IMG/VR virus record: IMGVR_UViG_3300036398_002853
Span: 1 to 44,386 of that record
DNA length: 44,386 nucleotides
Reading direction: 5' to 3' (one strand)
DNA from: a virus
The notes beneath the pieces were generated by a model that had not been told where the DNA came from, did not search any database, and worked only from the letters and a program-made list of their open reading frames with translations. The translations under genes were made by a program, and so were the position numbers. Below, piece by piece: positions 1,103 through 44,386 of this stretch. Within the stretch, counting starts at the first letter, position 1; each line of letters begins with the position of its first letter.

Positions 1103-1891
1103 TCAGTTGATTGTATCGCACGGCTCGTATCCACTAGCGATAAGATTGTCCCAAAGCGCACGAGCGTCTTGGACATTCAAAAAATTGTGGATGATACCCG
1201 TGATATCATACTGCTTCTCGCCGTTCTCGTAACGGGTAATCATCACCGTATTATCCCCGTTCTCGTTGTAGACGAATCGCACGACCATGCTGCCATTACG
1301 CAGCATGTAGGTTGCGCCACCCCGCTCCTCTTCGTCCGCAGGAACCGCAGCAGGAACCGCAACAACAGGAGCGGCAGTAGCGGTGCTGCCGTCGTCTTCG
1401 GTGAAGAAGTGGATGTCGCCCGCGATGCCCTTGGCAGACATACGGTCAATGGCTTGCATCTTTGCGTACTTGTCAAACAAGGCTTCGTTGAACTTGCTTG
1501 AGGACGAGAACCACCAGCACTTGCCCACGCTGTCCCACATTGCGCCGTCAGCCTTCGCAATGTCCTTCTGCTCGTAGGGCAGACGCAGCACCACATTGTA
1601 CGGGTGCGTGTGGTTCAGATCGCTCCACTTGATCGCGGAGTTGAACACGGGCGACTTGCGCTCGCCACGGAACATGTTGTGCTTGTTGAACCAGTTCACG
1701 CTGTCCTGCGTGATACGACGCTGCGGAAGCCACCAAGACCACTTCTTGCCGTTGGGCAGGTAACGCGCACCGCGACCCTTGGCTTCGCTGCGAAGAGCGG
1801 TTGCGCCCTTGGTGCGGAACGGAATGTCCAGCCACAGACCGTAGGGAAGCGGCTTGGACGCATCAAAAGTGAAAGTGTAAGAGTTCTGCAT
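1103..1891 (-). CDS. DUF5710-like repeat protein (262 aa)
   Basis: Start at ATG 1891-1889 (MQNSYTFTFDAS). Only 6 nt separate it from a TATACT box, so the mRNA is probably leaderless. Residues about 13-60 (YGLWLDIPFRTKG...WSWWLPQ) and about 95-130 (VVLRLPYEQKDIAKADGAMW, then KCWWF) are two copies of a short domain resembling DUF5710 ('LxVPyxEKDxAKxxGAxWD...W'), which I recall from primase/topoisomerase-associated proteins. An Ala/Pro/Val linker follows. The C-terminal domain (NTVMITRYENG...QDARALWDNLIASGYEP) carries the ARxLW helix shared with small neighbours. It heads a four-gene leftward operon. A nucleic-acid-related role is plausible but unproven. Confidence 0.8.
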   Translation of the reverse strand: MQNSYTFTFDASKPLPYGLWLDIPFRTKGATALRSEAKGRGARYLPNGKKWSWWLPQRRITQDSVNWFNKHNMFRGERKSPVFNSAIKWSDLNHTHPYNVVLRLPYEQKDIAKADGAMWDSVGKCWWFSSSSKFNEALFDKYAKMQAIDRMSAKGIAGDIHFFTEDDGSTATAAPVVAVPAAVPADEEERGGATYMLRNGSMVVRFVYNENGDNTVMITRYENGEKQYDITGIIHNFLNVQDARALWDNLIASGYEPCDTIN

Positions 1892-1992: not shown

Positions 1993-2253
1993 TTAGGCGG
2001 GAGGATGCACCTCGACTGCCTTCAAAGAGTCGGGCTTGAAAGAACGCCAACCCTTTGCCTCCAAATCGTAAACAGGAAGCGTATCGCTCTTGCGAGACTG
2101 TTCGCTGCCCTTGGGATGGTGGTCGGACGGAATCATCGTGATGTTCCGTGTGCCGACCAGCACTCGCTCCGTTCCGTCCTTCTTGGTAAACACCAAGCGA
2201 ACGACTGCTCCATTGTCAAGGTACTGCTTCGCGGTTTCGTAGAGAGATGTCAT
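1993..2253 (-). CDS. WYL_2 (DUF2693)-like small protein (86 aa)
   Basis: Start ATG 2253-2251, 6 nt from a consensus TATACT box, so probably leaderless. The pattern 'VRLVFTKKDGTERVLVGTRN', then 'IP', then 'LPVYDLEAKGWRSFKPDSLK' matches what I recall of the WYL_2/DUF2693 family found in T4-like phages: a small beta-barrel with a K-x-D-G-x-x-R hairpin and a 'vyDl..kGWRsf..dsi' end. The length fits the family. The molecular role is unknown; WYL-type folds often bind nucleic acids or nucleotides. It is a single-gene unit with its own promoter, upstream of the 1103-1891 operon. Confidence 0.8.
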   Translation of the reverse strand: MTSLYETAKQYLDNGAVVRLVFTKKDGTERVLVGTRNITMIPSDHHPKGSEQSRKSDTLPVYDLEAKGWRSFKPDSLKAVEVHPPA

Positions 2254-2315: not shown

Positions 2316-2807
2316 TTACTCGTCGTGCAGTTCGCCAACCTCGTCATCACCCAATTCCCAAGTAATTTCGGGTTGAGGAATCCCTGAACCGTCACCGTCT
2401 GCAATAAGTGAAATCATATCACCGTCAAATGTGTAGAACGCCACAGGTCGGGCAGGGTAGCCAGCCCTCTTCAGGATTTGAACCATTCGCATTCGTCCCA
2501 CAGGATTCAACGAGTGGCAAATTGCTTCTCCAATATGTGGAGTGTGTTCACGAATCCAATCAGCAATAGCCGTACCGTCACGCCACCCCTGCTTTTCGCT
2601 AGAGTAGTGAGCGTCCTCAAGATCGTGATCCAAAAACACCACATCCCACTTTCCGTTTTGAAGTTGTGTAATGGCTTCGTCGTAATTCTGCGCCCACACA
2701 AATTCCACATGGGCGGTTTCAGCCCGCTTATACAGGTCTGTGAAAATATCCCAACGCTCGCGCATGTCGTCTACAAAAAGAATTCGTCGCTTGTTTTTTG
2801 TGCTCAT
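2316..2807 (-). CDS. Cyclic-phosphate processing receiver (cREC)-like protein (163 aa)
   Basis: Start at ATG 2807-2805 (MSTKNKRRILFVDDM); the further in-frame start lacks a ribosome site. Residues 9-15 (ILFVDDM), 56-63 (VVFLDHDL) and 97-103 (CHSLNPVG region) form the DD / DHDL / HSxNPxG signature that I recall for the cREC receiver-like domain ('cyclic-phosphate processing receiver'). That domain has been linked to RNA-repair or cyclic-phosphate conflict systems. Acidic residues D13, D14, D60 and D62 and His98 would form the active site. The C-terminal 40 residues are acidic and not part of the fold. Family recall is fairly firm; the biochemical role is inferred only. Confidence 0.75.
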   Translation of the reverse strand: MSTKNKRRILFVDDMRERWDIFTDLYKRAETAHVEFVWAQNYDEAITQLQNGKWDVVFLDHDLEDAHYSSEKQGWRDGTAIADWIREHTPHIGEAICHSLNPVGRMRMVQILKRAGYPARPVAFYTFDGDMISLIADGDGSGIPQPEITWELGDDEVGELHDE

Positions 2808-2900: not shown

Positions 2901-3446
2901 TCATGCTTCTAGGGCGTAAGTATCATGTGTGTATATTTTCCGCGAACTCTTTCGCTTTTGTATACGGGACAAACGGGGCATTCGGGTCACGGGATGATAC
3001 GAATCAATTCCGTTGGGATGCTCTGAAACGCGAAAGAATTCCGAAGGCAGGTCTGATTGCCCCGTATAGTCGGGATATCCGCCCGTGAAGTGGTTCCAAC
3101 TGAACATGTTTGAAACCACATCACGATATTTACAGGCTCGCAAGTAATTCAACACAGTCTCACATCTCTCTGGAGTAACCGTGCCCACAGGAATCCATCC
3201 GTCGCTGATGAAACCGTCCCACAGGTCGCGTGACACCGTTGTATCACACCGCACAAGGTGTACAGGTAAAGAGTAGATGCCGTTGGAAGGAGGATTGGCG
3301 TAATCGTAGAACTGCCTAGACGAGTATTGGCAAACCACAAACCGATTGGTCACGGTGCGTTCAAAGCACACGCAGTCGGGCAGCGATGGGTCGTTAATTT
3401 TGGGGTGACGCAGCAGCCACATGTCTACGAGTTCAGGCTTGTCCAT
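2901..3446 (-). CDS. Hypothetical protein (181 aa)
   Basis: Start at ATG 3446-3444 (MDKPELVDMWLLRHP), 7 nt from a TATATT box; an in-frame ATG two codons upstream would lie inside the spacer. The protein is unrecognised. It has a central 'VHLVRCDTTVSRDLWDGFISDGWIPVGTV' region (residues about 69-97) containing the R-x-L-W-x-x-[FL]-[IV]-x-x-G-W motif also seen in the products of 1103-1891, 497-790, 10040-10480 and 10484-10879. The C-terminus is basic (RLSRIQKRKSSRK). It is probably a monocistronic early gene. Confidence 0.75.
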   Translation of the reverse strand: MDKPELVDMWLLRHPKINDPSLPDCVCFERTVTNRFVVCQYSSRQFYDYANPPSNGIYSLPVHLVRCDTTVSRDLWDGFISDGWIPVGTVTPERCETVLNYLRACKYRDVVSNMFSWNHFTGGYPDYTGQSDLPSEFFRVSEHPNGIDSYHPVTRMPRLSRIQKRKSSRKIYTHDTYALEA

Positions 3447-3453
3447 ACACACA

Positions 3454-3481
3454 AATATACCACATTTCCTGCACGGGTCAA
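3454..3481 (-). promoter_or_regulatory. Early sigma70-like promoter
   Basis: Minus strand: TTGACC (3476-3481), 16 nt, TATATT (3454-3459), 7 nt, then the ATG at 3446. Same geometry as the other leaderless promoters. Confidence 0.7.
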
Positions 3482-7293: not shown

Positions 7294-8049
7294 ATGAAGA
7301 CTACTTTTGCAACTTTACTACTCGGCGCACTTGCCACCGTGGCTAGTGCACAAACGGCTCCTGAAGCCAAGGCTCCCGTCACCGCTCCCTCTGCTGCTCT
7401 GTTCAACAGCGTGAGTGTGGACGAGACTTTGGTCTTCTGGGGCAAGACCAATGTTGACACCGTTGTGGAACTTGACTCGTCTGTAAAGGGCAAGTTGTAC
7501 GACCTCGTGGGTTGGCACATTACTGTTCCCGTGTACTCGCAAGACACCACTGGATACGGTGCAATCGACCTTGGTGTTGACTACGCTCTGGTCAAGGGCG
7601 TAAAGTTTCTTGGTGCTGACACCAACTTTGCCGTTGAAGGTGGCGCGTGGATGCCCACAGGCTCGGCTGGTTACGGCACTGATAATGTGAATCCCCATGT
7701 TGGTTTCAATTACGACATGACTTGGGGTTCGATGGTATACGCTCAAACCTTTGATGTGCGTTGGGTTGGATCGTATGCGTATAGTCCCGTGTTTGGTAAT
7801 TTTAACAACTACGGTTTGAATGCCGAGTCGTTTGTTGCCTACAAGTGGAGCAGCCTACAGGTCGGCGTAGACCTGAACCAATGGTACACCGAGGGCAGCA
7901 ATGTGGCTTTCCTTGGCCCAAAGGCGGAATGGGCTGTTTCACACAATGTTGACCTGAACGCAGGCTTCGGCGTTCCCGTATGGCAGGAAGTAAACGCTGC
8001 CAACGAGAACTCGTGGGCTGTGACTCTGGGTCTTGGTATCAAGTTCTAA
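7294..8049 (+). CDS. Outer-membrane beta-barrel protein with signal peptide (251 aa)
   Basis: Start at ATG 7294 with AAGGAGA 7 nt upstream; a TTG one codon earlier is ignored. Residues 1-19 (MKTTFATLLLGALATVASA) form a textbook Sec signal peptide with an A-x-A cleavage site. The mature part is made of alternating polar/aromatic strands (GAIDLGVDYALVKGVKFLG, WSSLQVGVDLNQWYT) and ends in the strand TLGLGIKF with a C-terminal Phe, the hallmark of BAM-assembled outer-membrane barrels. About 8-10 strands are likely, so a small OmpA/OmpW-like or phage Lom-like barrel. It would be made in the infected cell and placed in the host outer membrane, possibly to alter receptors or block superinfection. 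It is followed by a small membrane-protein gene with a similar ribosome site. Confidence 0.8.
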   Translation: MKTTFATLLLGALATVASAQTAPEAKAPVTAPSAALFNSVSVDETLVFWGKTNVDTVVELDSSVKGKLYDLVGWHITVPVYSQDTTGYGAIDLGVDYALVKGVKFLGADTNFAVEGGAWMPTGSAGYGTDNVNPHVGFNYDMTWGSMVYAQTFDVRWVGSYAYSPVFGNFNNYGLNAESFVAYKWSSLQVGVDLNQWYTEGSNVAFLGPKAEWAVSHNVDLNAGFGVPVWQEVNAANENSWAVTLGLGIKF

Positions 8050-10039: not shown

Positions 10040-10480
10040 TTACACCGCGTCCCACTTGCCCTCCCACCGATACCAAATCTTGCGGTTGGCCCAATACTCT
10101 AAACCAAAATTCATGCACGCGCTCCACAACTCTCGTGCCTGACTCCATGTCATGCTAGCCTTGCCGTCAACAAACAGGTGGGGAATGTGGATGGTGTACA
10201 CACTACGCAACCACACCTCGCGCTTCAGGCTTTGCGGATTCAGCCATGCGCGTGCGTGTGCCCCGTAACCACAAACCGTAACATCCATGCCGTCCACACG
10301 CCACTTGCGACGGTGGCACACCCAACTAGGCGTGAACGCCAAAACGGTGGTGGTGTCGCCGCCCACAACACCGTCACACACCCGCCACCCGTGCATGGTG
10401 GGCAGCGGGTACTCTTGCGTAATATCTAGTGGCTCCTTTGGTGGCAGCGGCGTGAGTAATGTGGACGAGAAGTAGTTCAC
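10040..10480 (-). CDS. Hypothetical protein with ARELW motif (146 aa)
   Basis: A GTG start (10480-10478), 3 nt after the stop of the upstream gene, is preferred; the next ATG lies 28 codons in. The protein is Trp-rich (WRVCDGVVG, HRRKWRVDGMDVTV, LKREVWLRSVYTIHI), with a final helix SQARELWSACMNFGLEYW of the ARxLW type shared with four other small proteins here, then a basic/aromatic C-terminus (ANRKIWYRWEGKWDAV). No catalytic motif was recognised. It is co-transcribed with 10484-10879 from the promoter at 10886-10913. Confidence 0.7.
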   Translation of the reverse strand: MNYFSSTLLTPLPPKEPLDITQEYPLPTMHGWRVCDGVVGGDTTTVLAFTPSWVCHRRKWRVDGMDVTVCGYGAHARAWLNPQSLKREVWLRSVYTIHIPHLFVDGKASMTWSQARELWSACMNFGLEYWANRKIWYRWEGKWDAV

Positions 10481-10483
10481 GGT

Positions 10484-10879
10484 TTACGCCTTGACCTCTA
10501 CCGACACCACCGCATCCAACTCTGCTTGTGAAAGCAGCACCGTGGGCGCGCATCGGCTTGCGTCCGCAACACTGGTGTGCCAACCGCTACGAATCAGCAG
10601 TCTCCACGCAAGACGAGCGGTTTCCGTGTATATAATAATCGTGCCAGATTCGGTCTTGTGCTTGCGATTGTACCTACGCGCCAGCGTGCCTATGATTGGT
10701 GTGCGTGCCCACAGCGGTGATTCCGGCGATGCCATAGTCATGGTGCACTTTCGGGTTTCGTGGTCAGGAGCGAATTCCACATAGTAGTTGTACGGATGCA
10801 CGGTGGTGATGTTGTGCTTTGCACCGGGTGTGCGTGGTTCCGCGAATCGTGCCCACAAGCGGTAAACGGGTTGTGTCAT
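10484..10879 (-). CDS. Hypothetical protein with ARLAW motif (131 aa)
   Basis: Start ATG 10879-10877 (MTQPVYRLWARFAEPR), 6 nt from a TATACT box and without a Shine-Dalgarno, so probably leaderless; an in-frame ATG further out lies inside the promoter. The N-terminal half contains HPYNYYVEFAPDHETRKCTM (beta-type). The second half has ESGTIIIYTETARLAWRLLI followed by RSGW, the ARxLW-helix module found in several neighbours. Function unknown. First gene of a two-gene early unit. Confidence 0.75.
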   Translation of the reverse strand: MTQPVYRLWARFAEPRTPGAKHNITTVHPYNYYVEFAPDHETRKCTMTMASPESPLWARTPIIGTLARRYNRKHKTESGTIIIYTETARLAWRLLIRSGWHTSVADASRCAPTVLLSQAELDAVVSVEVKA

Positions 10880-11555: not shown

Positions 11556-11628
11556 TAGGTGCGGTGGGATTCGAACCCACACTGTGGAGATTTTGAGTCC
11601 CCTATCTCTGCCGTTGGATTACGCACCC
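11556..11628 (-). tRNA. tRNA-Leu(CAA), short variable loop
   Basis: The cloverleaf can be drawn completely: acceptor GGGTGCG/CGCACCT (one G-T pair), D arm with a 3-bp stem and GG in the loop, anticodon stem GGGGA/TCTCC with loop CTCAAAA (anticodon CAA, reading UUG), a variable region of only 5 nt (ACAGT), T arm GTGGG-TTCGAAT-CCCAC, discriminator A73. CCA is not encoded. Bacterial leucine tRNAs normally have a long variable arm, so this is an atypical type I body with a Leu anticodon. Confidence 0.8.
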
Positions 11629-11840: not shown

Positions 11841-11881
11841 GCTGTGTGTTTCCTTGTAGGTTTGCGAGTGTACGGGGGAAG

Positions 11882-11954
11882 CGTCCCCGAGTGGATTTGA
11901 ACCACTGACTTGCCGCTTAGAAGGCGGCTACTCTATCCACTGAGTTACGGGGAC
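11882..11954 (-). tRNA. tRNA-Arg(TCT)
   Basis: Complete cloverleaf: acceptor GTCCCCG/CGGGGAC, D arm ACTC/GAGT, anticodon stem GCCGC/GCGGC with loop CTTCTAA (anticodon TCT, reading AGA), 5-nt variable loop, T arm AGTGG-TTCAAAT-CCACT, discriminator G. CCA is not encoded. Confidence 0.92.
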
Positions 11955-12748: not shown

Positions 12749-14098
12749 TCAGAAGGGGCACTTGGTGGAAGCAGCAGGAGCGGCATCAACAGGAGCCGCA
12801 ACAGGATCAGGAGTCTTGGCAGTCGCGTCGATCTTGGTGTAGAACTCCGTGAACGCATTCTTCGTCTCCTCATCGAAGCGCGACACGCAACGCTCAATGG
12901 CTTGCATCTTGTCGCCGAACACGCTGAACGCGAACACGATGTCACGCAGACGGCGCGTGGTGATGATCTCGTTCACGATCTGCTGCTTGAACGACTTGCG
13001 AACCAGATCAGCCCAGTTCACGAGATTGTCCATGAAATCATCGTCGCTCACACCGAGCGAACCCGCGTACTTCTTGAGAATCTTCTTCTCAACCTTCGGC
13101 TCTGCGTAGTCCTGTTCGTAGCAGAAGTGGAAGCGGTCAAGGAACGCCTCGTTCAACTGATTCGTGCCAGCGAAGCGACCGTCTGCGCTGCCCTTGCCCT
13201 TGGTGTTTGCGGTTGCCACGATGGTGAAACCCGCAGCAGGACGCACATACTGACCAATCTTGGGGATGAACTTGCCCTTGCCCTCCAGCACCGACTGCAA
13301 GCACATGATGGCGTGACCGCCCAGATCCACCTCGTCAAGCAGCAGCACCGCGCCACGCTCCATTGCCACAAGCACGGGACCGGGAACGAACTTGGTTTCG
13401 CCTGCAATCAGACGGAAACCGCCAAGCAGTTCGTCTTCATCCGTCTGCACGGTGAAATTCACGCGAATGCACTCGCGTCCCAACTTGGCGCACACCTGTT
13501 CCACCATCGTGGTCTTGCCGTTGCCGCTCATGCCCGTGATGAACACAGGGCAAAACGCCTTGGACGCGATAATCGTCTCGATTTCGCTGTGGTAGCCCCA
13601 CGCAATGTAGTTGCTGTCGGTGTCAGGCGTGAACGAAGTGCGCTCGCCGCCCGTCAGGCTTGCCACCATGCACGCCGCATCAGCAGTGAGCGACACGCCG
13701 CTGCCCGTGGTGATGCGCGTAGCCACCGAGGAGTCCGCAACCACGGACGCAAGCGCAGCAGCAGCGCGAGACGCAGGAGCCGCAGCAGGTGCGGGAGTCT
13801 TGGTTGCGCTGTTTGCGGTCTTTGCACCCGCAGGGCGACCACGCTTCACCGCGATCACGGTGATATCCGAGTCGCTTGCCATGATTTCGGGCAGCATGTA
13901 GAAGCCACGACCGGACTTGCGGCTTGCGGTCATGCACCACGCGGGCACTGCGGAGTAGCCAGCGCGCTTGGCAGCAGCAAGCAGTTCGCTGTACATCACG
14001 CCGCCGCCCTTGCCGAAGTTTCCTCCGTGGAAATACGGGCGAACGGCGGTAACGAAGGCGTGCTGGGTCGAAGTAAGAGTGTAGGTAGAGTTCTTCAT
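12749..14098 (-). CDS. cobS: CobS-like MoxR-family AAA+ ATPase (449 aa)
   Basis: Start ATG 14098-14096, 6 nt from a TAAATT box. The N-terminal domain (1-95) has SAVPAW, SGRGFYMLPEI and an AT-hook-like RGRPAGAK. An Ala/Pro linker follows (about 100-125). The AAA+ core has Walker A GMSGNGKT (about 189-196), Walker B VLLLDEVD (about 251-258), sensor-1 type TIVATANT (about 292-299) and an arginine-finger/sensor region AFLDRFHF. CobS acts with CobT on the cobalt chelatase in aerobic B12 synthesis, but no CobN is seen here. In phages the pair may instead remodel another target. It heads an operon running through the two tRNAs. The partner gene 14232-16514 is directly upstream with its own promoter. 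Confidence 0.88.
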   Translation of the reverse strand: MKNSTYTLTSTQHAFVTAVRPYFHGGNFGKGGGVMYSELLAAAKRAGYSAVPAWCMTASRKSGRGFYMLPEIMASDSDITVIAVKRGRPAGAKTANSATKTPAPAAAPASRAAAALASVVADSSVATRITTGSGVSLTADAACMVASLTGGERTSFTPDTDSNYIAWGYHSEIETIIASKAFCPVFITGMSGNGKTTMVEQVCAKLGRECIRVNFTVQTDEDELLGGFRLIAGETKFVPGPVLVAMERGAVLLLDEVDLGGHAIMCLQSVLEGKGKFIPKIGQYVRPAAGFTIVATANTKGKGSADGRFAGTNQLNEAFLDRFHFCYEQDYAEPKVEKKILKKYAGSLGVSDDDFMDNLVNWADLVRKSFKQQIVNEIITTRRLRDIVFAFSVFGDKMQAIERCVSRFDEETKNAFTEFYTKIDATAKTPDPVAAPVDAAPAASTKCPF

Positions 14099-14104
14099 AT
14101 CAAT

Positions 14105-14133
14105 AATTTACCCGATTTTTGGGTTCCTGTCAA
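14105..14133 (-). promoter_or_regulatory. Early sigma70-like promoter of cobS
   Basis: Minus strand: TTGACA (14128-14133), 17 nt, TAAATT (14105-14110), 6 nt, then the ATG at 14098. Confidence 0.7.
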
Positions 14134-14178
14134 GGGTTTTTTGCGAAAAACGATTCAAAAAGTCCGATAATCCACTTC

Positions 14179-14205
14179 GTAAACCCCTGTGGGGAGGGAA
14201 TTTAC
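14179..14205 (-). terminator. Weak hairpin after the cobT-like gene
   Basis: Minus strand: GTAAA ... CCCC-ACA-GGGG-TTTAC. The inner 4-bp stem plus outer GTAAA/TTTAC and a short T run could terminate or attenuate transcription, but it is weak, and read-through into cobS is possible. Confidence 0.3.
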
Positions 14206-14231
14206 GCTGTTTTTGCAGAATGTGCTGCGGC

Positions 14232-16514
14232 TCACGCCAGTGCAAGGTACTCGCCGATGATGGTGGACAGCGAACGCATGGAATTTGCCATGGCCTGCTT
14301 GTTCACCACAGCCGTCACCAGCGTGCGGGCACTCTTTGCCGCATCAATCTTCTCGTCCATCTTGTGCATCTGCCGTTCAATCCACGCATTATTGCCTGCG
14401 TCACCGAAACGCGCTGCCACAGCCACCACCGCAGTGTCAAAACCACACGCAGTACCACGGGCAAAACCGTCACGGCTCCAGTTGTTGCCCTTGGCAGACG
14501 GCACAAAGCCACCCATGTTGGGCACATTAGTGCTTTGACGCTCGGTCAGACCGATCCAGTGCACCTTGGAACCCGTGCGACGGCGCAGAATGTCAATGGC
14601 AGCACACACCGAAGCGTTGTACGGGTTTTCCCAACGCACAGTGCCACGCTGGAAACTGCCGTACTTGCCGTCAGCACCCGTGCAGTAGTGCGTATCAATA
14701 TCATACGACACGCCAGTCTGCGGGTCTTGCATCACATGGTGGGTGCGATACCCACTACCACTGGTGTTCGTGAAGAACCCATCGGTGGCTTCGCCGTCAG
14801 TCAGCACCACGGTGTGTGCAATCTGAATGCGGTTCACCTTGAGGAAGTTCTCCACAACAGGCACAATGTGGTACAGTGCCGAAACGGTGGGCGTGGAACC
14901 CATGCGGTAGCAGCGATCATTGGTGATCGTGCCCCAGTGCCGCCACAACATGCTCTTCATGCGCTCGTACTGCGGAGCGGTCATGCGACTGCTAAAGAAA
15001 TTCAGCAGACTCACCTGCACGGTTGCAGCCTTGCCAATCATGGGCTTTTCCCACGCTTCGCGCTGTGCCTTGTACTGCGTGTACACATCGTCGCTGTACG
15101 GATCAACCCCCTTCTCCAACTTGAGGTACGGCGAATCGGTGAACGCAAACACTTCAAAGGGGATGCCAGCCATGCGGCAGAAATCAGTCAAGATGATCAA
15201 CTGACCCAGAGTCTGCTGCATGATGCTGCACATGGAGCCGCTCCAGTCAAGCAGAATCACGATGCCGTGGTTCTTGCCAGTGGTGACGCGAGCGGTGCGA
15301 CGGAAAATGTCTTCGTTCCACTTGTACTGCGTCATGCGGAGAGGATCAACGCCACCAGTCTTGGCAATCACGGTGCGCTTCCAAATATCCGCAGACTTGC
15401 GACGATCAAACGCGGTAGCCATCGCGGTGCTGGCAGTCTTGTACTCTGCGCTGCGGAACGGCTCCACAACGGGATTGAGACGAGCCACGATGCGCTCCAC
15501 ATCAGCGAGCACGCTCTTGAAGTCCACAACAGCGTCCTGTGTATCGCACACGCGCAGCGTCTTGACATCGTAACCGCTGCGGCTGGTGTCGTTCAGCGTC
15601 TTCATGGCATTCTCAAAAGCACTCTGCGTGGTGGGCATGGGCATATCGCTCTGCGGCTTCTCGCTCTGCGAATTGCCGTGCGACGGCTGGTTGCCACCAG
15701 TGTCGCCACCCTGCGAGTCTTCAGGGCTACCGCCGTTGCTAGCGGATTCGTCGCCACCATCAGTAGTGGTGCTGCCGCTCTCGCTCTTGGCTTCGCCTTC
15801 ACCGCTGCCCGACTGTGACTGGCTCTCCTGCTCTTCGCCTTCGCCCGAGCCACTCGCGCCGTCCGACTGGTCGCTGTTGCTGTCCTGCTTTTCCTTCATC
15901 CACTTGCCAGCGTCCACCGCAAGCATGGCATCAGCAGCAGCAACAGCGTCTTCCCAAGTCTGTGCAGCATCAAGCGCGTCCACGATGCCCTGCTCGTGCG
16001 CGTTGAAAGTAATGCTTGCACCAGTGTGCAGACCCAACTTGAAGTGGAGGTTCACGCGGTCGCCGCAGCACAGGGTGTTCCAGTCGCTGCCCTGCGTCTT
16101 GAAGAAGTCCTGCGCGAGCAGTTCACCGTAACCCTTGAAGAAGTCTGCACGCAGACCGGGGAACTGATTCTTAATCAGTCGCTCAATGCGAGCGTCTTCT
16201 GCAATGTTGAGGTACTGACGCGCCACACCCTCGCTCACGCCGTGCTTGGCGGCAAGCGTCTTGGAGTCCGTGCTCCAGCCGGTCTGCGGCGTGTGCAGCG
16301 CGTGCGACACTTCGTGACCCACAAGCATATCGTAGAGCGCGTTGCTCATATCCTTCCAACGGGGCAGGATGAGGGTGCGGGTCTTCAAGTCGAACGCAGC
16401 GGTGGGCACATTGCTGTGCTCCACGGAAATGTTTTCAGTGGCAAGAAGACGCGCAAGCACGCTCTTGGTGGAGGTGTTCGGGGCGGTGGTAGCCGTAGCG
16501 GTAGAGTTCTGCAT
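14232..16514 (-). CDS. cobT: CobT-like VWA protein with HExxH domain (760 aa)
   Basis: Start ATG 16514-16512 (MQNSTATATT), directly behind a promoter. The N-terminal domain contains MLVGHEVSHALH (H67-E-V-S-H71), a zincin-type HExxH, preceded by PRWKDMSNALYDM, as in VWA-linked putative metallopeptidase domains. Residues about 205-320 are a low-complexity Ser/Gly/Glu/Asp/Gln linker, typical of CobT. The C-terminal VWA domain has VILLDWSGSM (MIDAS D-x-S-x-S, about 418-427) and later TVVLTDGEATDG. CobT is the VWA partner of CobS; like other MoxR-VWA pairs (RavA-ViaA, NorQ-NorD) it would activate a metal-containing or multisubunit target. Whether the HExxH is catalytic is unknown. Confidence 0.85.
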   Translation of the reverse strand: MQNSTATATTAPNTSTKSVLARLLATENISVEHSNVPTAAFDLKTRTLILPRWKDMSNALYDMLVGHEVSHALHTPQTGWSTDSKTLAAKHGVSEGVARQYLNIAEDARIERLIKNQFPGLRADFFKGYGELLAQDFFKTQGSDWNTLCCGDRVNLHFKLGLHTGASITFNAHEQGIVDALDAAQTWEDAVAAADAMLAVDAGKWMKEKQDSNSDQSDGASGSGEGEEQESQSQSGSGEGEAKSESGSTTTDGGDESASNGGSPEDSQGGDTGGNQPSHGNSQSEKPQSDMPMPTTQSAFENAMKTLNDTSRSGYDVKTLRVCDTQDAVVDFKSVLADVERIVARLNPVVEPFRSAEYKTASTAMATAFDRRKSADIWKRTVIAKTGGVDPLRMTQYKWNEDIFRRTARVTTGKNHGIVILLDWSGSMCSIMQQTLGQLIILTDFCRMAGIPFEVFAFTDSPYLKLEKGVDPYSDDVYTQYKAQREAWEKPMIGKAATVQVSLLNFFSSRMTAPQYERMKSMLWRHWGTITNDRCYRMGSTPTVSALYHIVPVVENFLKVNRIQIAHTVVLTDGEATDGFFTNTSGSGYRTHHVMQDPQTGVSYDIDTHYCTGADGKYGSFQRGTVRWENPYNASVCAAIDILRRRTGSKVHWIGLTERQSTNVPNMGGFVPSAKGNNWSRDGFARGTACGFDTAVVAVAARFGDAGNNAWIERQMHKMDEKIDAAKSARTLVTAVVNKQAMANSMRSLSTIIGEYLALA

Positions 16515-37221: not shown

Positions 37222-37986
37222 CTATAACGGGTTTCCTGATAACTCTAGAACTACTGCTCGCACCCACTCCGCTACAAGGTCTACCCGAGTAGCGGAGTTT
37301 TCATATATGGTAGAGTCTTTGGTGGCTAGTGAGGAAATGATTCCAACCAGCACGCCCCTGCTGTTCAGGACTGCGCCGCCTGAATCGCCAAAATACAGGG
37401 TTCCGTTGATTGGCAGCATTTTGAATACTGTGGGTTCTTCAATCAGGGTTCCGTAGTACCAAAACACATCAGGATTGCTACGGCGTTTGTAGCCTCCACC
37501 AAAACCAATCAGAGTAAGCGACTCGCCTTGAATGTATCGGTTACTTTTGCCCATGATGGGAACAGGAGTAACAGGGCAGTTACGCTCAAGCAGCCCAACT
37601 GCTGCGTCTTGGAACAAGCGATCCCCAATTTTGTATTTGGGGTGCATACGGTAGTCCACAATCTTGTACGATTCGCACCCCACCACGAACAGGTCAGCGT
37701 CACCGTCTTCCATGCAATGCCCTGCGGTAATGAAAACATTGGGTGCAATAAGTACTGCACTACCAATTTCAGAGCCATCGGCTTTGGCAAGCATACCAAC
37801 TGCCAATTCCTCTGTTTGCTCGTCCAGTAGGGAAAAGCCGCCCATGAACCACGGAAGGTGTGTAGCGGGAATCCCTACTGGAGTTTTTTCCTGTGGTGTG
37901 TCGTATACCGACACCGATGCCTCGTCACATGCCCCGAAGAGTAGTGAGAGGGCCAGCAGAAGAGATGGAACATAGCCTCTCTGCAT
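37222..37986 (-). CDS. Secreted trypsin-like serine protease lipoprotein (254 aa)
   Basis: Start at ATG 37986-37984 (MQRGYVPSLLLALSLLFGAC); an in-frame start 9 codons upstream would spoil the signal peptide. The lipobox L-F-G-A-C20 predicts lipidation. The chymotrypsin fold has all triad motifs: FITAGHCMED (H90), FQDAAVGLLE (D127) and YFGDSGGAVLNS (S202), plus a typical LIGFGGG and GVLVGIISSLA. Such S1 proteases are common in bacteria and predators but rare in phages. It might process surface proteins of the infected cell or neighbours. The start is weakly promoter-like (TAGATA, 5 nt before the ATG), so expression may be early. Confidence 0.85.
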   Translation of the reverse strand: MQRGYVPSLLLALSLLFGACDEASVSVYDTPQEKTPVGIPATHLPWFMGGFSLLDEQTEELAVGMLAKADGSEIGSAVLIAPNVFITAGHCMEDGDADLFVVGCESYKIVDYRMHPKYKIGDRLFQDAAVGLLERNCPVTPVPIMGKSNRYIQGESLTLIGFGGGYKRRSNPDVFWYYGTLIEEPTVFKMLPINGTLYFGDSGGAVLNSRGVLVGIISSLATKDSTIYENSATRVDLVAEWVRAVVLELSGNPL

Positions 37987-38817: not shown

Positions 38818-40740
38818 TTATGTGGTCAGGTCAACAATCTCACACTTGTCGCCAGTGCACGAGAATGTTTGGGTTCCAACAGTCTTGTCTTCCTTCTCGT
38901 AGTTCACCATTTCACTCCAGTCCACGCCCTGTGGCATGGCAGCAAGAGCGGCTTCGTACTGCTCCTTGGTGCAGTCCTGATACGGTGCTTGCTTGTACGA
39001 GTGATCGGAATGGGGCAGGAAAGAAATACCGCTGATCTCGTCAAAGTGCTTATACACCCACGCACCCACCTCCATCCACTCGTGCTCACGCACAGTAACA
39101 GTAATACTGGGCTTGTGTTCGCACCAGTGCCGCTGATACGCCAGCCACAACTCCAAGTGCTGAATAGCAGTCATGTGGTTGCGGGTCACAGAACCCACAG
39201 CCTTCATGGGGAACGAGAACACCATTGTGTGGTCGGGACGCATATTGCACACTTCGTGTGGGAAGCCCTTGTCAATCATAAACTGACACAGAGGGTCTTT
39301 GCGATCTGCACGAACGGTGCGAATGTAGTACTCGTTGTGACGAGCGTGGATGCCGCTTGCAGAATCAGTCAACTGCGATACGGTTCCACTAGGCTTGACA
39401 CAAGTAATAGCCGCTGCGGGGTTGATGCCAATCCGCTTTGCCCACTCCTTGTTGGTAGCCACGGCATGGTCACGAAGCGATTCAAGAATGTGCTGCAAGT
39501 TTTCGGTGTTGTCACGCATCATGGCGTTGTCAAGAATACCTGTGAGTGACACACCAAGCAGTGCTTCCTCTTCACAGTTCTTCTTCCAATCACTAGACAG
39601 GTACGGAAAATGGGTAAGACTAGCCTGCCATGTGCCAAGAATGGCAGCAAGCCGTACCTTACGCTTCAAGGTTTCTTCTGTATCGTCCTTGCGAACAATT
39701 ACTTCAGACAGATTGCAGAACTGCTTGTCACGCAGAATAATTTCAGAACACGGATTAGTGCCGAACTCGTAGGTGGCATCACGACGCTCACCCAACTTTT
39801 CCACAGTCTTCTGTGCAGCCTCACGGTTAAAGATGCCACGCTCACCGCTCTTGCTGTTGTACAGAGACAGCCACTCTTCCATGAATGTGCCAATCTCGGG
39901 CTTCTCCTTGTACGCCACACTGTTGTTAGCCAGTGCACGCTGTGGGTTCTCGTTCCACCACGCACCGCTCTTGGCATTACGCATACGCTCGTCTGTCAGA
40001 TTGGACAGAGAGATGAGTGCAGAACGACGCACACCACCCACCACAACCACTTCTGCTACCTTGCAAATAATGTCATGGCATTCCATTGAGGTGAGTTTGC
40101 GTCCTGCTGCTCGCTTGAAAGTATCAACGGTGAAACCGAACAGTTCTTCAAGTGGGCGAGGACCGCTTGCACGACCGCCAAATGTTTTTAGTCTTGCACC
40201 AGCGGGGCGAATCTTACTGGTGTCCCACGACGGAATCTGCCCACCAATCAGGAGTGAAACCAGTTCACGATACGCTTTTGCCCATCCTTCTTTGGAGTCC
40301 TTCACCACGATAACGGTATCGCTACTGCTGAACTGCTCTGCAATAGTGGGTAGTTTCTCCACATACTGCCGCTCCACAGAGAAGCCCACGCCTGTGCCGC
40401 ACATAAGCACATACAGGATTTCATCAAACGCACGCACCTTGTTTACTGCCACATACGAGCAGTTGTAGCCTGCGGTGTTGTCACGCTTTAGTGCTTCGCC
40501 TGCGGTCATTAGCGAACGCATGGACGGCATGATTTCTTGATTCAGGATAGCGGATTCCAATTCTTCACGAACAGACTTGGGAATCTTTATGCCCTTCTCT
40601 TCCCAATGCTCGTCAAAGAAAAGGAAATAACGAGCAACCGTTTCTTCCCATGTTTCGCGTCTGCCTTCGCTTTCAATCCACCGCGAGTACCTTGAAAGAT
40701 GGATGAATTGCTGATAGAAACTGGGAAGAGTCTTGGTCAT
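38818..40740 (-). CDS. nrdJ: Class II (adenosylcobalamin-dependent) ribonucleotide reductase (640 aa)
   Basis: I start at ATG 40740-40738 (MTKTLPSFYQQFI), because GGAGG lies 5 nt upstream; an ATG 4 codons earlier overlaps that site. The sequence follows the monomeric RTPR type: TAGYNCSYV (C94), VLMCGTGVGFSVER, GGVRRSALISLSNL, GTNPCSEIIL (C331, E333), FCNLSEV (C342), and a C-terminal SCTGDKCEIVDL thiol pair. C94/C342 would be the redox pair and C331 the thiyl-radical site. At 640 residues it is about 100 shorter than the Lactobacillus enzyme. It makes dNTPs for phage replication and needs B12 from the host. A weak GTGAAC-16-CATACT promoter lies upstream. Confidence 0.92.
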   Translation of the reverse strand: MTKTLPSFYQQFIHLSRYSRWIESEGRRETWEETVARYFLFFDEHWEEKGIKIPKSVREELESAILNQEIMPSMRSLMTAGEALKRDNTAGYNCSYVAVNKVRAFDEILYVLMCGTGVGFSVERQYVEKLPTIAEQFSSSDTVIVVKDSKEGWAKAYRELVSLLIGGQIPSWDTSKIRPAGARLKTFGGRASGPRPLEELFGFTVDTFKRAAGRKLTSMECHDIICKVAEVVVVGGVRRSALISLSNLTDERMRNAKSGAWWNENPQRALANNSVAYKEKPEIGTFMEEWLSLYNSKSGERGIFNREAAQKTVEKLGERRDATYEFGTNPCSEIILRDKQFCNLSEVIVRKDDTEETLKRKVRLAAILGTWQASLTHFPYLSSDWKKNCEEEALLGVSLTGILDNAMMRDNTENLQHILESLRDHAVATNKEWAKRIGINPAAAITCVKPSGTVSQLTDSASGIHARHNEYYIRTVRADRKDPLCQFMIDKGFPHEVCNMRPDHTMVFSFPMKAVGSVTRNHMTAIQHLELWLAYQRHWCEHKPSITVTVREHEWMEVGAWVYKHFDEISGISFLPHSDHSYKQAPYQDCTKEQYEAALAAMPQGVDWSEMVNYEKEDKTVGTQTFSCTGDKCEIVDLTT

Positions 40741-40821
40741 TAGTGCCTCCATTGTTAGGGTTGGTAGAGTATGTAGCCCCTACCACGAGGTTCACAGGCG
40801 TTCAAATATAGTTTTGAATTT

Positions 40822-41613: not shown

Positions 41614-42026
41614 TAAGGATTGTTTGTTATGTAATCGTCTATCTGTTGGTGAGTGGTAAGAGCAGCCACAACCGCTTTATCGGCTTGCTTGTCGATCATG
41701 GCTTGTAGAAAGGCTTGTGTGCTTTCTGCTGGATCGTTTGCTGTGTTCACGACATCTGTGAGTTGCTGTTTATACTTTTGATCTACGGCAGAAAGTAGAG
41801 GCTGCTTTCGATCTTCCACACTCAAGTCCTTAACATTCCAAAGAATTTCTACAGGAGTCTTGGTTAAGTCAAACCAATGCCCATCGGTGACTTGTTTTCC
41901 TGCAACTAGTTCAGGTTGAACCTCCACCGCATCGCGCCAATCGCCTGTGTTCATGGCTCCTTCAGGAACCTCGTCTGCATTCATGCACTCAACCACAGAG
42001 TTGTTTTCTATTCGTATTTTCTTCAT
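41613..42026 (-). CDS. Small protein of tail-fibre regions (137 aa)
   Basis: ATG 42026-42024 with GGAAGGAGAC upstream, inside the end of the previous gene (38-nt overlap). MKKIRIENNSVVECMNADEV, 'GDWRDAVEV' and 'HWFDLTKTPVEILWNVKDLS' then 'EDRKQPLL' follow a pattern I recall from fibre-associated proteins of marine T4-like phages. The C-terminal half is helical (STQAFLQAMIDKQADKAVVA). It may be a fibre connector or assembly factor. Translation coupling to both neighbours is likely. Confidence 0.7.
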   Translation of the reverse strand: MKKIRIENNSVVECMNADEVPEGAMNTGDWRDAVEVQPELVAGKQVTDGHWFDLTKTPVEILWNVKDLSVEDRKQPLLSAVDQKYKQQLTDVVNTANDPAESTQAFLQAMIDKQADKAVVAALTTHQQIDDYITNNP

Positions 42027-43782
42027 TTGCTTGTCTCCTTCCGTATGTAGTTACAAGTTCAGTACCCAACTTTTCTATCGGAGCATTCCAGTCTCCAAAT
42101 TTTTCTTGACGGAACAACCGCACGGAATCATAGAAGGGAGATGTTTCTCCTTCAGGACTCCAAATATAATAATTCAGCACAGGTAACACCACCCATGTAG
42201 GCACACCCATAGCACCCGAAAGATGGGCAATACTTGTGCAGGACGATATTACAAGATCACAGCCTGATATGACTTCCCGTGTTTGTTCCCAATTATTCAA
42301 GGCTACCTTACGAATAAAATCAGGGCAGTCTTCCTCACCTTCATCCCGTTGCAGACACACAAAGTCTGCGTCTATGTCTCGTAGTGCTTCAAAGAACGGC
42401 TCCAATGGAAACCTGCGATTCTGCTCGTCTTCAAACTTGGGATTACCTTGCCAACGCACACCAATCACAGGACGGGGAGCATTGGGCATATGTGTGCGTG
42501 GAATGTATGACTTGCCGTTAATATCTGAATACTCGTATCCCAAAGGAGTGAGAACAGACATGGCAGGAATCCAAAAATCGTGATACACCAATCCTGCGGC
42601 ACGATGATCAATAATCATTTTCACGCCTGTGCAAGTCTTCACAATGGGACACAGTTCAGGTGAACACGCCACTATAACATCACAACCACGGCGATTCAGA
42701 TCAGAAATGTATTTCAAAGAATGAATCTGATCACCCAAACCGCCTTCAAGATAATACAAAATAGTTCCCATGCTCTTGCCGTCCCATATGGGTGTAGGCA
42801 CATCAGGCTTGGGATTTCCAAAAGCGTTTTCGTATCGTCCCCGCGACATGAGGTTCATGCCGTCTTGAAGTTTTCCTTCACGCAAGGCAAACCATCCCAT
42901 GTTGAATGCTATCTTGTTGCACTCAGGGCGTTCTGCCTGTGCTGCTTGGAGTACACGATACGACTCTTCAAACTGTCCTTGTTTGGAAAGTTCCACGGAG
43001 ATATCAATTTTCTTCTTTGGTATCTCTGCTTGTGTTTCACCCATCCAGAATCGTGGCTTGTGAAACGAGTCCCAATGATACCCAAGAATATCTTTTGCTG
43101 TTTTGTTGTGCTGTCTGCCCAAGCGAGGAGCAATGCTGTGCAGATTGGGAATGCCCCATGCAGCATCATCTCGTTCTGCTACCACTTGGGTATCAATACA
43201 GTTAAAGTCAAACTGATGGGGAGGCAACTCCAAGAACTCCAAAACTCGATTCATTTGTGTCTGTGGAGATTGCAGCAACTCGTCATAGTCCACAAACAGA
43301 AAGCATTCAGGATTGTCTTCGTAACCTTCTTGCAGGGTGGCATACGAAGACTTCAGGTGTGAAATGATGTGAGAGCCGTTCAGGAATACTGTGAGATTGT
43401 CTGGCTTGATCAGACGCACAAAGGATGCCGCACAATCAGCAGGATGACGAACCGTAGCAATAATTTTTGGTGGTCTGCCAAGAACTTGGTGCATGGTTTT
43501 CATAATGACAGGATTTGCCCACCCTCGGCTCTTGTCTATGATGACTGGTTTGGGTTCCGTTTCGTATTTTCCGTCAACCACGGAACGAAGCAAACGATGT
43601 ACTTCTGCTGTGGAAGCATCTCCTTTTGTGGGAGAACCTTCCCATGCTGCACACACCGCGCCCATAATGTCTATGAGTCCACTTGTGGATGTGGCTTTAA
43701 TTTGCGGATGCTGATTCAACAGCGCAGCAAGAACCGTGGAACCGCTGCGAGGAAGACCTGATAGAAAGTGTAGTGATTTCAT
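41989..43782 (-). CDS. Sulfotransferase-TPR-glycosyltransferase fusion (597 aa)
   Basis: ATG 43782-43780 with GGAG upstream. Residues 1-250 are a PAPS-dependent sulfotransferase: LSGLPRSGSTVLAALLNQHP (5'-PSB loop, 11-17) and KIIATVRHPADCAASFVR (3'-PB motif, about 106-123). Residues about 260-325 are TPR-like (ELSKQGQFEESYRVLQAAQA, IAFNMGWFALREGKLQDGMN). Residues about 335-575 resemble the TPR-linked family-9 glycosyltransferase/heptosyltransferase end domain: YYLEGGLGDQIHSLKYISDL, VIGVRWQGNP, GCDLVISSCTSIAHLSGAMG and P-T-W-V-V-L-P. The combined enzyme could sulfate and glycosylate a surface polymer or the fibres. All motifs are intact. Confidence 0.85.
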   Translation of the reverse strand: MKSLHFLSGLPRSGSTVLAALLNQHPQIKATSTSGLIDIMGAVCAAWEGSPTKGDASTAEVHRLLRSVVDGKYETEPKPVIIDKSRGWANPVIMKTMHQVLGRPPKIIATVRHPADCAASFVRLIKPDNLTVFLNGSHIISHLKSSYATLQEGYEDNPECFLFVDYDELLQSPQTQMNRVLEFLELPPHQFDFNCIDTQVVAERDDAAWGIPNLHSIAPRLGRQHNKTAKDILGYHWDSFHKPRFWMGETQAEIPKKKIDISVELSKQGQFEESYRVLQAAQAERPECNKIAFNMGWFALREGKLQDGMNLMSRGRYENAFGNPKPDVPTPIWDGKSMGTILYYLEGGLGDQIHSLKYISDLNRRGCDVIVACSPELCPIVKTCTGVKMIIDHRAAGLVYHDFWIPAMSVLTPLGYEYSDINGKSYIPRTHMPNAPRPVIGVRWQGNPKFEDEQNRRFPLEPFFEALRDIDADFVCLQRDEGEEDCPDFIRKVALNNWEQTREVISGCDLVISSCTSIAHLSGAMGVPTWVVLPVLNYYIWSPEGETSPFYDSVRLFRQEKFGDWNAPIEKLGTELVTTYGRRQANEENTNRKQLCG

Positions 43783-43809: not shown

Positions 43810-44386
43810 TTATGTAGTAGGATTCTGTGTAGTGAAAATCTTTAATGCTGCGTTATGTGCCTGTCCACTTGGTGATATTTTCCAGTTTGTTGCTGTTTGT
43901 ACCTGAACTGGCGATGAAACATTTTGAATAATGAGCACACCACTTTTCCCTAAGGTTCTCGATCCCCACGACCACAAACTTCCGTCTGTTTTTCTTGCTA
44001 ATGTAAAGGAACTACTCCCCGCACTTACTGATGACCAATTCGTATCAGTTCCCACTTGAACAGGAGAAGAACGAGCGGTGGTATCACCAAGACCTAATTG
44101 ACCGCTGGTGTTGCTCCCCCATGCCCAAAGAGATCCTGTGGTTTTGATGGCTAGTGTATTCTGACTACCCGCACTTACTGATGACCAATTCGTATCAGTT
44201 CCCACTTGAACAGGAGAAGAGCGATTAGTGACATCACCAAGACCCAACCGACCGTTGGTGATATTGTTCCCCCACGCCCAAAGAGATCCTGGAGACTTGA
44301 TTGCCATTGCATGGTAACCACCCGCACTTACTGATGACCAGGTCGCATCAGTTCCTACTTTAACAGGAGAAGAACGATTAGTGACA
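43810..44386 (-). CDS. RCC1-repeat protein, 5' part beyond the window
   Basis: The reading frame is open to the window edge; an internal ATG at 44307 is not the start, because the repeats continue upstream (SSPVKVGTDATWSSVSAGGY). Units of about 50 residues repeat: 'SLWAWGSNTSGQLGLGDTTA' and 'RSSPVQVGTDTNWSSVSAGS'. These are typical RCC1/BNR-like beta-propeller blades (G-x-x-L-W-x-W-G-x-N...G-Q-L-G-x-G-D). Phage proteins of this type are usually fibre or adhesin parts. The C-terminus (HNAALKIFTTQNPTT) lies 27 nt upstream of the fusion gene, suggesting one fibre/modification operon. Confidence 0.85.
   Translation of the reverse strand, partial: VTNRSSPVKVGTDATWSSVSAGGYHAMAIKSPGSLWAWGNNITNGRLGLGDVTNRSSPVQVGTDTNWSSVSAGSQNTLAIKTTGSLWAWGSNTSGQLGLGDTTARSSPVQVGTDTNWSSVSAGSSSFTLARKTDGSLWSWGSRTLGKSGVLIIQNVSSPVQVQTATNWKISPSGQAHNAALKIFTTQNPTT
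44019..44376 (-). repeat. RCC1-coding DNA repeats (period 150-153 bp)
   Basis: A block beginning GCACTTACTGATGACCA recurs at 44021, 44171 and 44324 on the plus strand and is nearly identical between the first two copies for about 60 nt. It codes one propeller blade per period and continues past the window. Confidence 0.85.

Follow-up and report, generated by a model that had tools for sequence, protein, structure and literature searches.

The cREC family was defined in PMC7824862, passages of which predict cyclic ADP-ribose or 2',3'-cyclic nucleotides as substrates of its members and link the family to RNA ligases and WYL domains. This prediction is repeated in PMC9503650, which in 2022 termed the family experimentally uncharacterized. 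According to passages of the latter paper, cREC occurs in up to 18% of jumbo phages, its site is metal-independent, and it forms sirtuin–T4-like tRNA ligase–cREC neighborhoods in Escherichia phage V5 and Proteus phage Mydo, with calcineurin-like partners and Nudix fusions as occasional associates. Passages of both papers predict repair of tRNAs cut by anticodon nucleases for part of the family, and the sensing of cyclic nucleotides by WYL domains is an idea put forward in PMC9503650. The 2H phosphoesterases covered there have the predicted substrate class in common with cREC but, per that paper, an unrelated fold. A literature search, in which subscription papers and bioRxiv preprints were sparsely represented, returned no experimental study of cREC. 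The family and its general function hypothesis are already published; the long branch, the direct adjacencies to HAD_PNKP, NADAR and WYL_2, and the counts reported below come from the present analysis.

The window, that is, the whole stretch of DNA analyzed here, is an entire IMG/VR record of 44,386 bases and carries a single cREC gene. This gene and its immediate neighbors are as follows.

2316..2807, minus strand: cREC gene, ATG at 2807, 163 amino acids (Pfam PF20274, AlphaFold fold, dN/dS)
1993..2253, minus strand: WYL_2 protein, encoded directly downstream of cREC (PF10902, E = 1.3e-16)
1103..1891, minus strand: DUF5710-containing protein, after WYL_2 (PF18974, E = 7.3e-8)
2901..3446, minus strand: fast-evolving protein of unassigned function, next gene upstream of cREC (no Pfam match)

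Membership of the product of 2316–2807 in the cREC family is secure. A profile search, the check named by the first-pass annotation for its family assignment, bore that assignment out: PF20274 (cREC_REC) matched residues 9 to 114 with 65.8 bits against a cutoff of 27 (E = 5.7e-18), and the same profile gave zero matches across 14 control genomes. The receiver profile PF00072 (Response_reg) scored 22.2 bits, under its cutoff of 30.2. The protein also matched PHROG 1479, whose function is unassigned in PHROG (E = 3e-15). Among the window and its nearest relatives among the matches listed, L002 (76% identity, 36.7-kb record) and L007 (66%, 147-kb record), dN/dS was 0.15 to 0.25, which indicates purifying selection on the gene. 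No NCBIfam model exceeded its cutoff for the window protein and no 2H family was present among its Pfam matches. Solved structures searched by sequence yielded no cREC relative, the best E values being 0.55 for the protein and 0.3 for the profile.

The AlphaFold model of the protein had a mean pLDDT of 85.9 and a pTM of 0.80, with strands at residues 7 to 12, 34 to 39, 54 to 59 and 92 to 97 and a short strand at 119 to 121. The best solved matches in Foldseek were response-regulator receivers (E = 1.6e-5), and VIA-align superposed the model on LuxO (5ep0) with a Z score of 14.8 and a root mean square deviation of 2.3 over 119 residues. In the viral structure library BFVD, the top match was a cREC protein of an uncultured phage (E = 3.3e-9). 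The window protein is thus modeled as a receiver-type fold. D13/D14, D60 and H98 directly follow strands 1, 3 and 4, at the active-site positions of receivers.

Using the protein alone, 5 viral relatives were found. An alignment of six sequences extended these to the best 80 of 90 relatives in viral contigs and returned 4 in bacterial genomes, and a second set comprised the best 80 of 208 relatives obtained with an alignment of the long branch described below. Searches of named phages by tblastn gave no match at an E value of 1e-5; at an E value of 10, weak matches appeared in 44 records, many by chance. The DD, DHDL and HSxNPxG residues that had been pointed out as the cREC signature were present as stated, at D13-D14, D60-H61-D62-L63 and H98-S99-x-N101-P102-x-G104. 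Their codons lie at the following positions.

2766..2771, minus strand: D13-D14, acidic pair after strand 1 (joint alignment)
2619..2630, minus strand: D60-H61-D62-L63 (DHDL), directly after strand 3 (residues 54 to 59), at the phospho-acceptor place of receivers
2496..2516, minus strand: H98-S99-L-N101-P-V-G104, directly after strand 4 (joint alignment)

In the joint alignment, D14 and each of D60, H61, D62 and L63 were found in 108/108 relatives, while position 13 held D in 93 of them and E in the other 15. Serine or threonine occupied position 99 in all 108; H98 was retained in 106, N101 in 107 and G104 in 98 of the 108, the two relatives without the histidine being L116 and L117. Because the searches had used DHDL or HSxNP patterns, each motif was checked in loci matching the other pattern alone. 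DHDL was present in 75 of the 77 loci found by the HS pattern alone and H[ST]xN in 65 of the 67 found by the DHDL pattern alone, near copies included in both counts. The conservation is therefore not purely an artifact of the search patterns.

A maximum-likelihood tree of 51 sequences, rooted at the midpoint only and with some long branches, placed 8 long sequences, including that of the window, apart from the other 43, most of them short "FLDDxRxP" forms (support, 94/92). Most of the short forms stop soon past the HSxNPxG helix and so have no fifth strand. Judged by alignment and tree, the window cREC is a member of an abundant phage branch that retains the fifth-strand region. It resembles the PF20274 family at large in its profile match, its DD, DHDL and HSxNP residues, its location in a phage and the lack of any kinase partner seen, but it belongs to the branch that keeps strand 5 and adjoins WYL_2 rather than the repair or NADAR genes that were sought.

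With canonical receivers (PF00072), the window protein has the fold, the acidic pair and the acceptor aspartate in common. It differs from them, beyond its score under the cutoff, in its His-Ser-x-Asn after strand 4, its extra D62, the missing lysine and the absence of a partner kinase among the genes scanned. The window protein has no lysine beyond residue 113. In the 8 long-branch sequences there is none ahead of the PF/PW/AF pair, and the receiver-lysine column of the joint alignment held K in only 5/65 rows. Since this lysine is missing, receiver switch chemistry is incomplete. Pfam scans of the window genes, the record being a fragment, found no family of two-component kinases. For these two reasons a working phospho-receiver is unlikely, which agrees with the first-pass view that the family does not belong to two-component signaling.

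The order upstream protein–cREC–WYL_2 was the same in 3/3 records, namely the window, L002 and L007 (the latter two are G045 and G001, respectively, in the neighborhood counts). The upstream neighbor was 39% and 36% identical to its homologues in L002 and L007, and its structure model, built with 3 sequences, was of such low confidence that no use was made of it (pLDDT, 52.5). WYL_2, small and SH3-like, had no match to a DNA-binding domain; a scan for it returned 8 relatives, the L002 and L007 records among these. The 40 further window proteins matched 14 Pfam families, none of them a two-component kinase, RNA ligase or end-healing enzyme. The tRNA genes mentioned by the first-pass annotation were confirmed as tRNA-Leu at 11556–11628 and tRNA-Arg at 11881–11954. 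A further gene at 7294–8049, which is also near cREC in L002 and L007, encodes a protein with a signal-peptide-like start and the look of an outer-membrane beta-barrel; it had no strong Pfam match.

Sigma-70-like promoters and closely spaced -10-like boxes were found on the minus strand.

3454..3481, minus strand: sigma-70-like promoter TTGACC-16-TATATT, 10/12 consensus bases, at the same place in L002 and L007
2260..2287, minus strand: sigma-70-like promoter TTGACA-16-TATACT for WYL_2, 11/12 consensus bases, -10 box 6 nucleotides before the ATG, conserved in L002 and L007
Minus strand: genes with a close -10-like box, encoding the DUF5710 protein, WYL_2, the upstream neighbor of cREC, the product of 10484–10879, an AAA ATPase and a VWA protein

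The promoter at 3454..3481 probably serves both the 2901–3446 gene and cREC. The cREC gene has an AAGAGA-like site and only a weak promoter-like match of its own and is therefore probably cotranscribed with the gene upstream. In the six minus-strand genes listed, the -10-like box ends 6 to 7 nucleotides before the ATG. A strict scan detected 4 such sites before frames of at least 60 amino acids, compared with a mean of 0.53 in shuffled sequence, and the stored stretches of L002 and L007 held 4 and 5 close-promoter sites, respectively. Inspection of the starts at 1891, 2253, 3446, 10879, 14098 and 16514 (minus strand), as well as of L002 and L007, placed the end of a sigma-70-like -10 box 6 to 8 nucleotides before the ATG. 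Several plus-strand genes have instead a CTAAATA motif and a GGAG-like site, an arrangement resembling T4-type late promoters. The position of the -10 boxes so near the ATG, conserved in two relatives, would imply leaderless early mRNAs. A literature search combining leaderless mRNAs with early promoters of phages pointed to one paper, on phage AR9. The placement of cREC among early genes by the first-pass annotation holds to the extent that the minus strand carries sigma-70-like promoters, support that is limited to promoter type.

Across the family, the gap between the end of HAD_PNKP, which is a polynucleotide 3'-phosphatase domain, and the cREC match that follows it was 10 bp in G004 and 9 bp in G038. 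Assuming uniform placement, ignoring relatedness and entering several large gaps, all above 6 kb, as rounded values, a position within 300 bp of cREC was found for HAD_PNKP in 2/4 records versus 0.06 expected (P ~0.0009), for WYL_2 in 3/10 versus 0.25 expected (P ~0.0014) and for NADAR in 3 of the 21 NADAR-bearing records versus 0.29 expected (P ~0.0026). The HAD_PNKP count is based on 4 matches above cutoff, with six weaker matches excluded. Some of the records are kin: G000, G001 and G045 form one lineage, G005 and G020 are near copies, and G004 and G038 belong to one clade. WYL_2 adjoined cREC in G000, G001 and G045 and was 1.9 kb away in G017. In G093 it was 1.5 kb away with NADAR between, giving a cREC-NADAR-WYL_2 run on one strand, and in five other WYL_2-bearing records the distance was at least 9.7 kb. 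NADAR itself was 54 to 241 bp from cREC in G083, G093 and G070 and was carried by 18/50 records of the second set and 3/51 of the first. In the first 50 relatives' records, the distance between RNA_ligase and cREC was 0.7 to 0.8 kb in G048 and G049 and did not exceed 6 kb in 6/12 records. Rnl1 was 179 bp from cREC in G087 (L147, second relative set) and at most 6 kb away in 7/23 records, which was significant at 6 kb only; at 300 bp or 1 kb, its adjacency was no more than chance. RtcB occurred in 1/51 and SIR2 in 2/51 records, neither near cREC.

Among the first 25 Pfam families listed for each gene set, the commonest neighbors were calcineurin-like phosphoesterases. Metallophos_2 was found in 7/150 near versus 2/134 far genes in the first set and in 6/149 versus 2/149 in the second, a modest excess among records that are not independent. 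NAD_synthase was also listed among the near genes of the second set and SLOG and WCX among those of the first, and the far genes of the second set included one NADAR and one SLOG. Neighbor genes were called simply as longest open reading frames, spurious frames included, and the first near-gene set undercounts WYL_2, the window WYL_2 being replaced by an antisense frame. The neighbor sets exclude L065 and L066 (frames longer than 2000 amino acids, no DHDL), and ten loci were without a called cREC gene. For the first set, the nearest 150 of 204 near genes and 134 of 420 far genes were scanned (150 drawn, 16 window genes excluded); for the second set, 149 of 236 near genes (one long frame excluded) and 149 of 490 far genes (489 after the length limit) were scanned. 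A weak relative (E = 0.3) in Aeromonas phage AhSzq-1 lies immediately before the gene for nicotinamide-nucleotide (NMN) adenylyltransferase, overlapping it by one base, and a nicotinamide riboside transporter gene follows the latter. In Cellulophaga phage phi17:2, a macro-domain gene and a metallophosphatase gene lie 3 kb and 5 kb, respectively, from the match. No named partner gene stood directly beside the match in phages XacN1 (Xanthomonas), f2b1, DLP6 (Stenotrophomonas) and SCTP-2 (Salicola). The neighbors of the family are enzymes of phosphate ends and of NAD/ADP-ribose, and the counts of conservation and of neighbors support end-healing and NAD/ADP-ribose roles at the level of the family.

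Conservation and context together make catalysis of cyclic-phosphate opening likely. The fuller proposal, that the window cREC is an early enzyme that opens terminal cyclic phosphates and acts without a ligase of its own, is one that we hold with about equal measures of confidence and doubt. A receiver-fold domain would have kept the acidic pocket (D13/D14) and the acceptor D60, gained D62 and lost the receiver lysine, with H98-S99-x-N101 occupying the place of the receiver Thr/Ser. Predicted substrates are the 2',3'-cyclic end of a cleaved RNA or ADP-ribose 1'',2''-cyclic phosphate. D60 may attack the phosphorus, or it may hold a metal together with D13/D14, and H98 would protonate the leaving oxygen. 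The gene would be expressed early from sigma-70-type promoters, with that of the small WYL-like protein following it. The enzyme would probably clear cyclic ends or signals of host attack, and re-ligation would be left to others because no phage ligase was seen. Against a cyclic-phosphate enzyme stand the lack of matches to the family's partner genes in the incomplete records of the window lineage, the 2/108 relatives without H98, the modest size of the Metallophos_2 excess among related records, the weakness of the AhSzq-1 match, and the metal-independent site described in passages of PMC9503650, which sits poorly with a protein in which the three acidic positions of receivers are all kept. 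If the activity is real, the protein would exemplify clearly how a signaling fold became a hydrolase used in phage-host conflict. The present data name candidate residues and substrates for the cREC family and point to a large REC-like phage branch.

The first-pass annotation had suggested that the enzyme may mend tRNAs cleaved by anticodon nucleases of the host, an idea that is supported in part. In its strict form, cREC would open the 2',3'-cyclic phosphate of the cut tRNAs, which would then be sealed by a 3'-phosphatase and an RNA ligase of the phage. At the level of the family this idea has support: passages of PMC7824862 and PMC9503650 predict it for some members, HAD_PNKP is adjacent to cREC in G004 and G038, and an RNA ligase lies within about 0.8 kb in G048 and G049 and Rnl1 close by in G087. 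The window phage also has two tRNA genes. For this phage the support is weaker. A cREC by itself could open cyclic ends but would be insufficient for complete repair. Pfam scans of the window genes, from an incomplete record, gave no match to a ligase, RtcB, HAD_PNKP or sirtuin, and the 66% and 76% relatives, G001 (147 kb) and G045, both fragments, had no match to Rnl1, RNA_ligase, HAD_PNKP, SIR2, RtcB or NADAR. The ligase negative for the window record comes from the Pfam scans, and profile searches with PF09511 and PF09414 covered the first 50 relatives' records. Passages of PMC9503650 describe phage cREC genes in V5 and Mydo too, but the sirtuin and ligase found beside those have no match in the window lineage. 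The window data count against a tRNA repair kit that is complete in itself, and strict tRNA repair is unlikely here. An enzyme that clears cyclic ends or derivatives of ADP-ribose, possibly in partnership with WYL_2, fits this phage better than complete tRNA repair.

A related possibility is that cREC serves counter-defense by degrading a soluble immune signal, either a cyclic ADP-ribose derivative or a cyclic nucleotide, and that WYL_2 senses the same ligand. The 3 records in which NADAR lies no more than 300 bp from cREC, NAD_synthase near cREC in the second set and SLOG and WCX in the first, the WYL_2 gene directly downstream in the window lineage and the cREC-NADAR-WYL_2 run in G093 all speak for it, as does WYL sensing of cyclic nucleotides as proposed in passages of PMC9503650. 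However, WYL_2 is small and SH3-like with no DNA-binding domain match, its ligand sensing is hypothetical, and one NADAR and one SLOG were also among the far genes; we regard this version as rather improbable. The receiver fold and the retention of every receiver acidic residue could alternatively reflect a receiver, either catalytically dead or signaling, whose role is to intercept a histidine kinase or phosphotransfer protein of the host. The lysine is missing from the window protein and K occupies only 5/65 rows of its column, the near-invariant DHDL and HSxN would be needless for a plain switch, and no kinase family was among the window genes scanned, and we consider such a receiver very improbable. 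Within the preferred reading of an enzyme that opens terminal cyclic phosphates, a more specific and doubtful extension is that the long branch, which is common in phages but sparsely annotated, stands between signaling and catalysis, with the receiver scaffold and strand 5 kept and the Thr/Lys switch changed to His-Ser-Asn, and that it forms with WYL_2 a two-gene, ligase-independent unit for clearing and sensing cyclic-phosphate or ADP-ribose signals.

Elsewhere in the window, a MoxR/CobS-like AAA ATPase adjoins a VWA/CobT-like protein at 12749–16514, and a similar pair was seen by eye near the cREC gene of L009. A B12-dependent (class II) ribonucleotide reductase is encoded at 38818–40752. 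By eye, a trypsin-like peptidase family is represented at 37222–37986 by a secreted-looking protein with a GDSGG motif, and the sulfotransferase PF13469 that was found is likely located in 41989–43782 (597 amino acids), the C-terminal part of which looks different. The frame at 43810–44385, cut off at the record end, contains repeated SLWAWG...GQLGLGD units that resemble RCC1-type repeats. An "(A)R-x-LW"-like stretch near Gly/Trp was noticed by eye in the products of 497–817, 1103–1891 (C terminus), 2901–3446, 10040–10480 and 10484–10879, and possibly represents a repeated small early domain.
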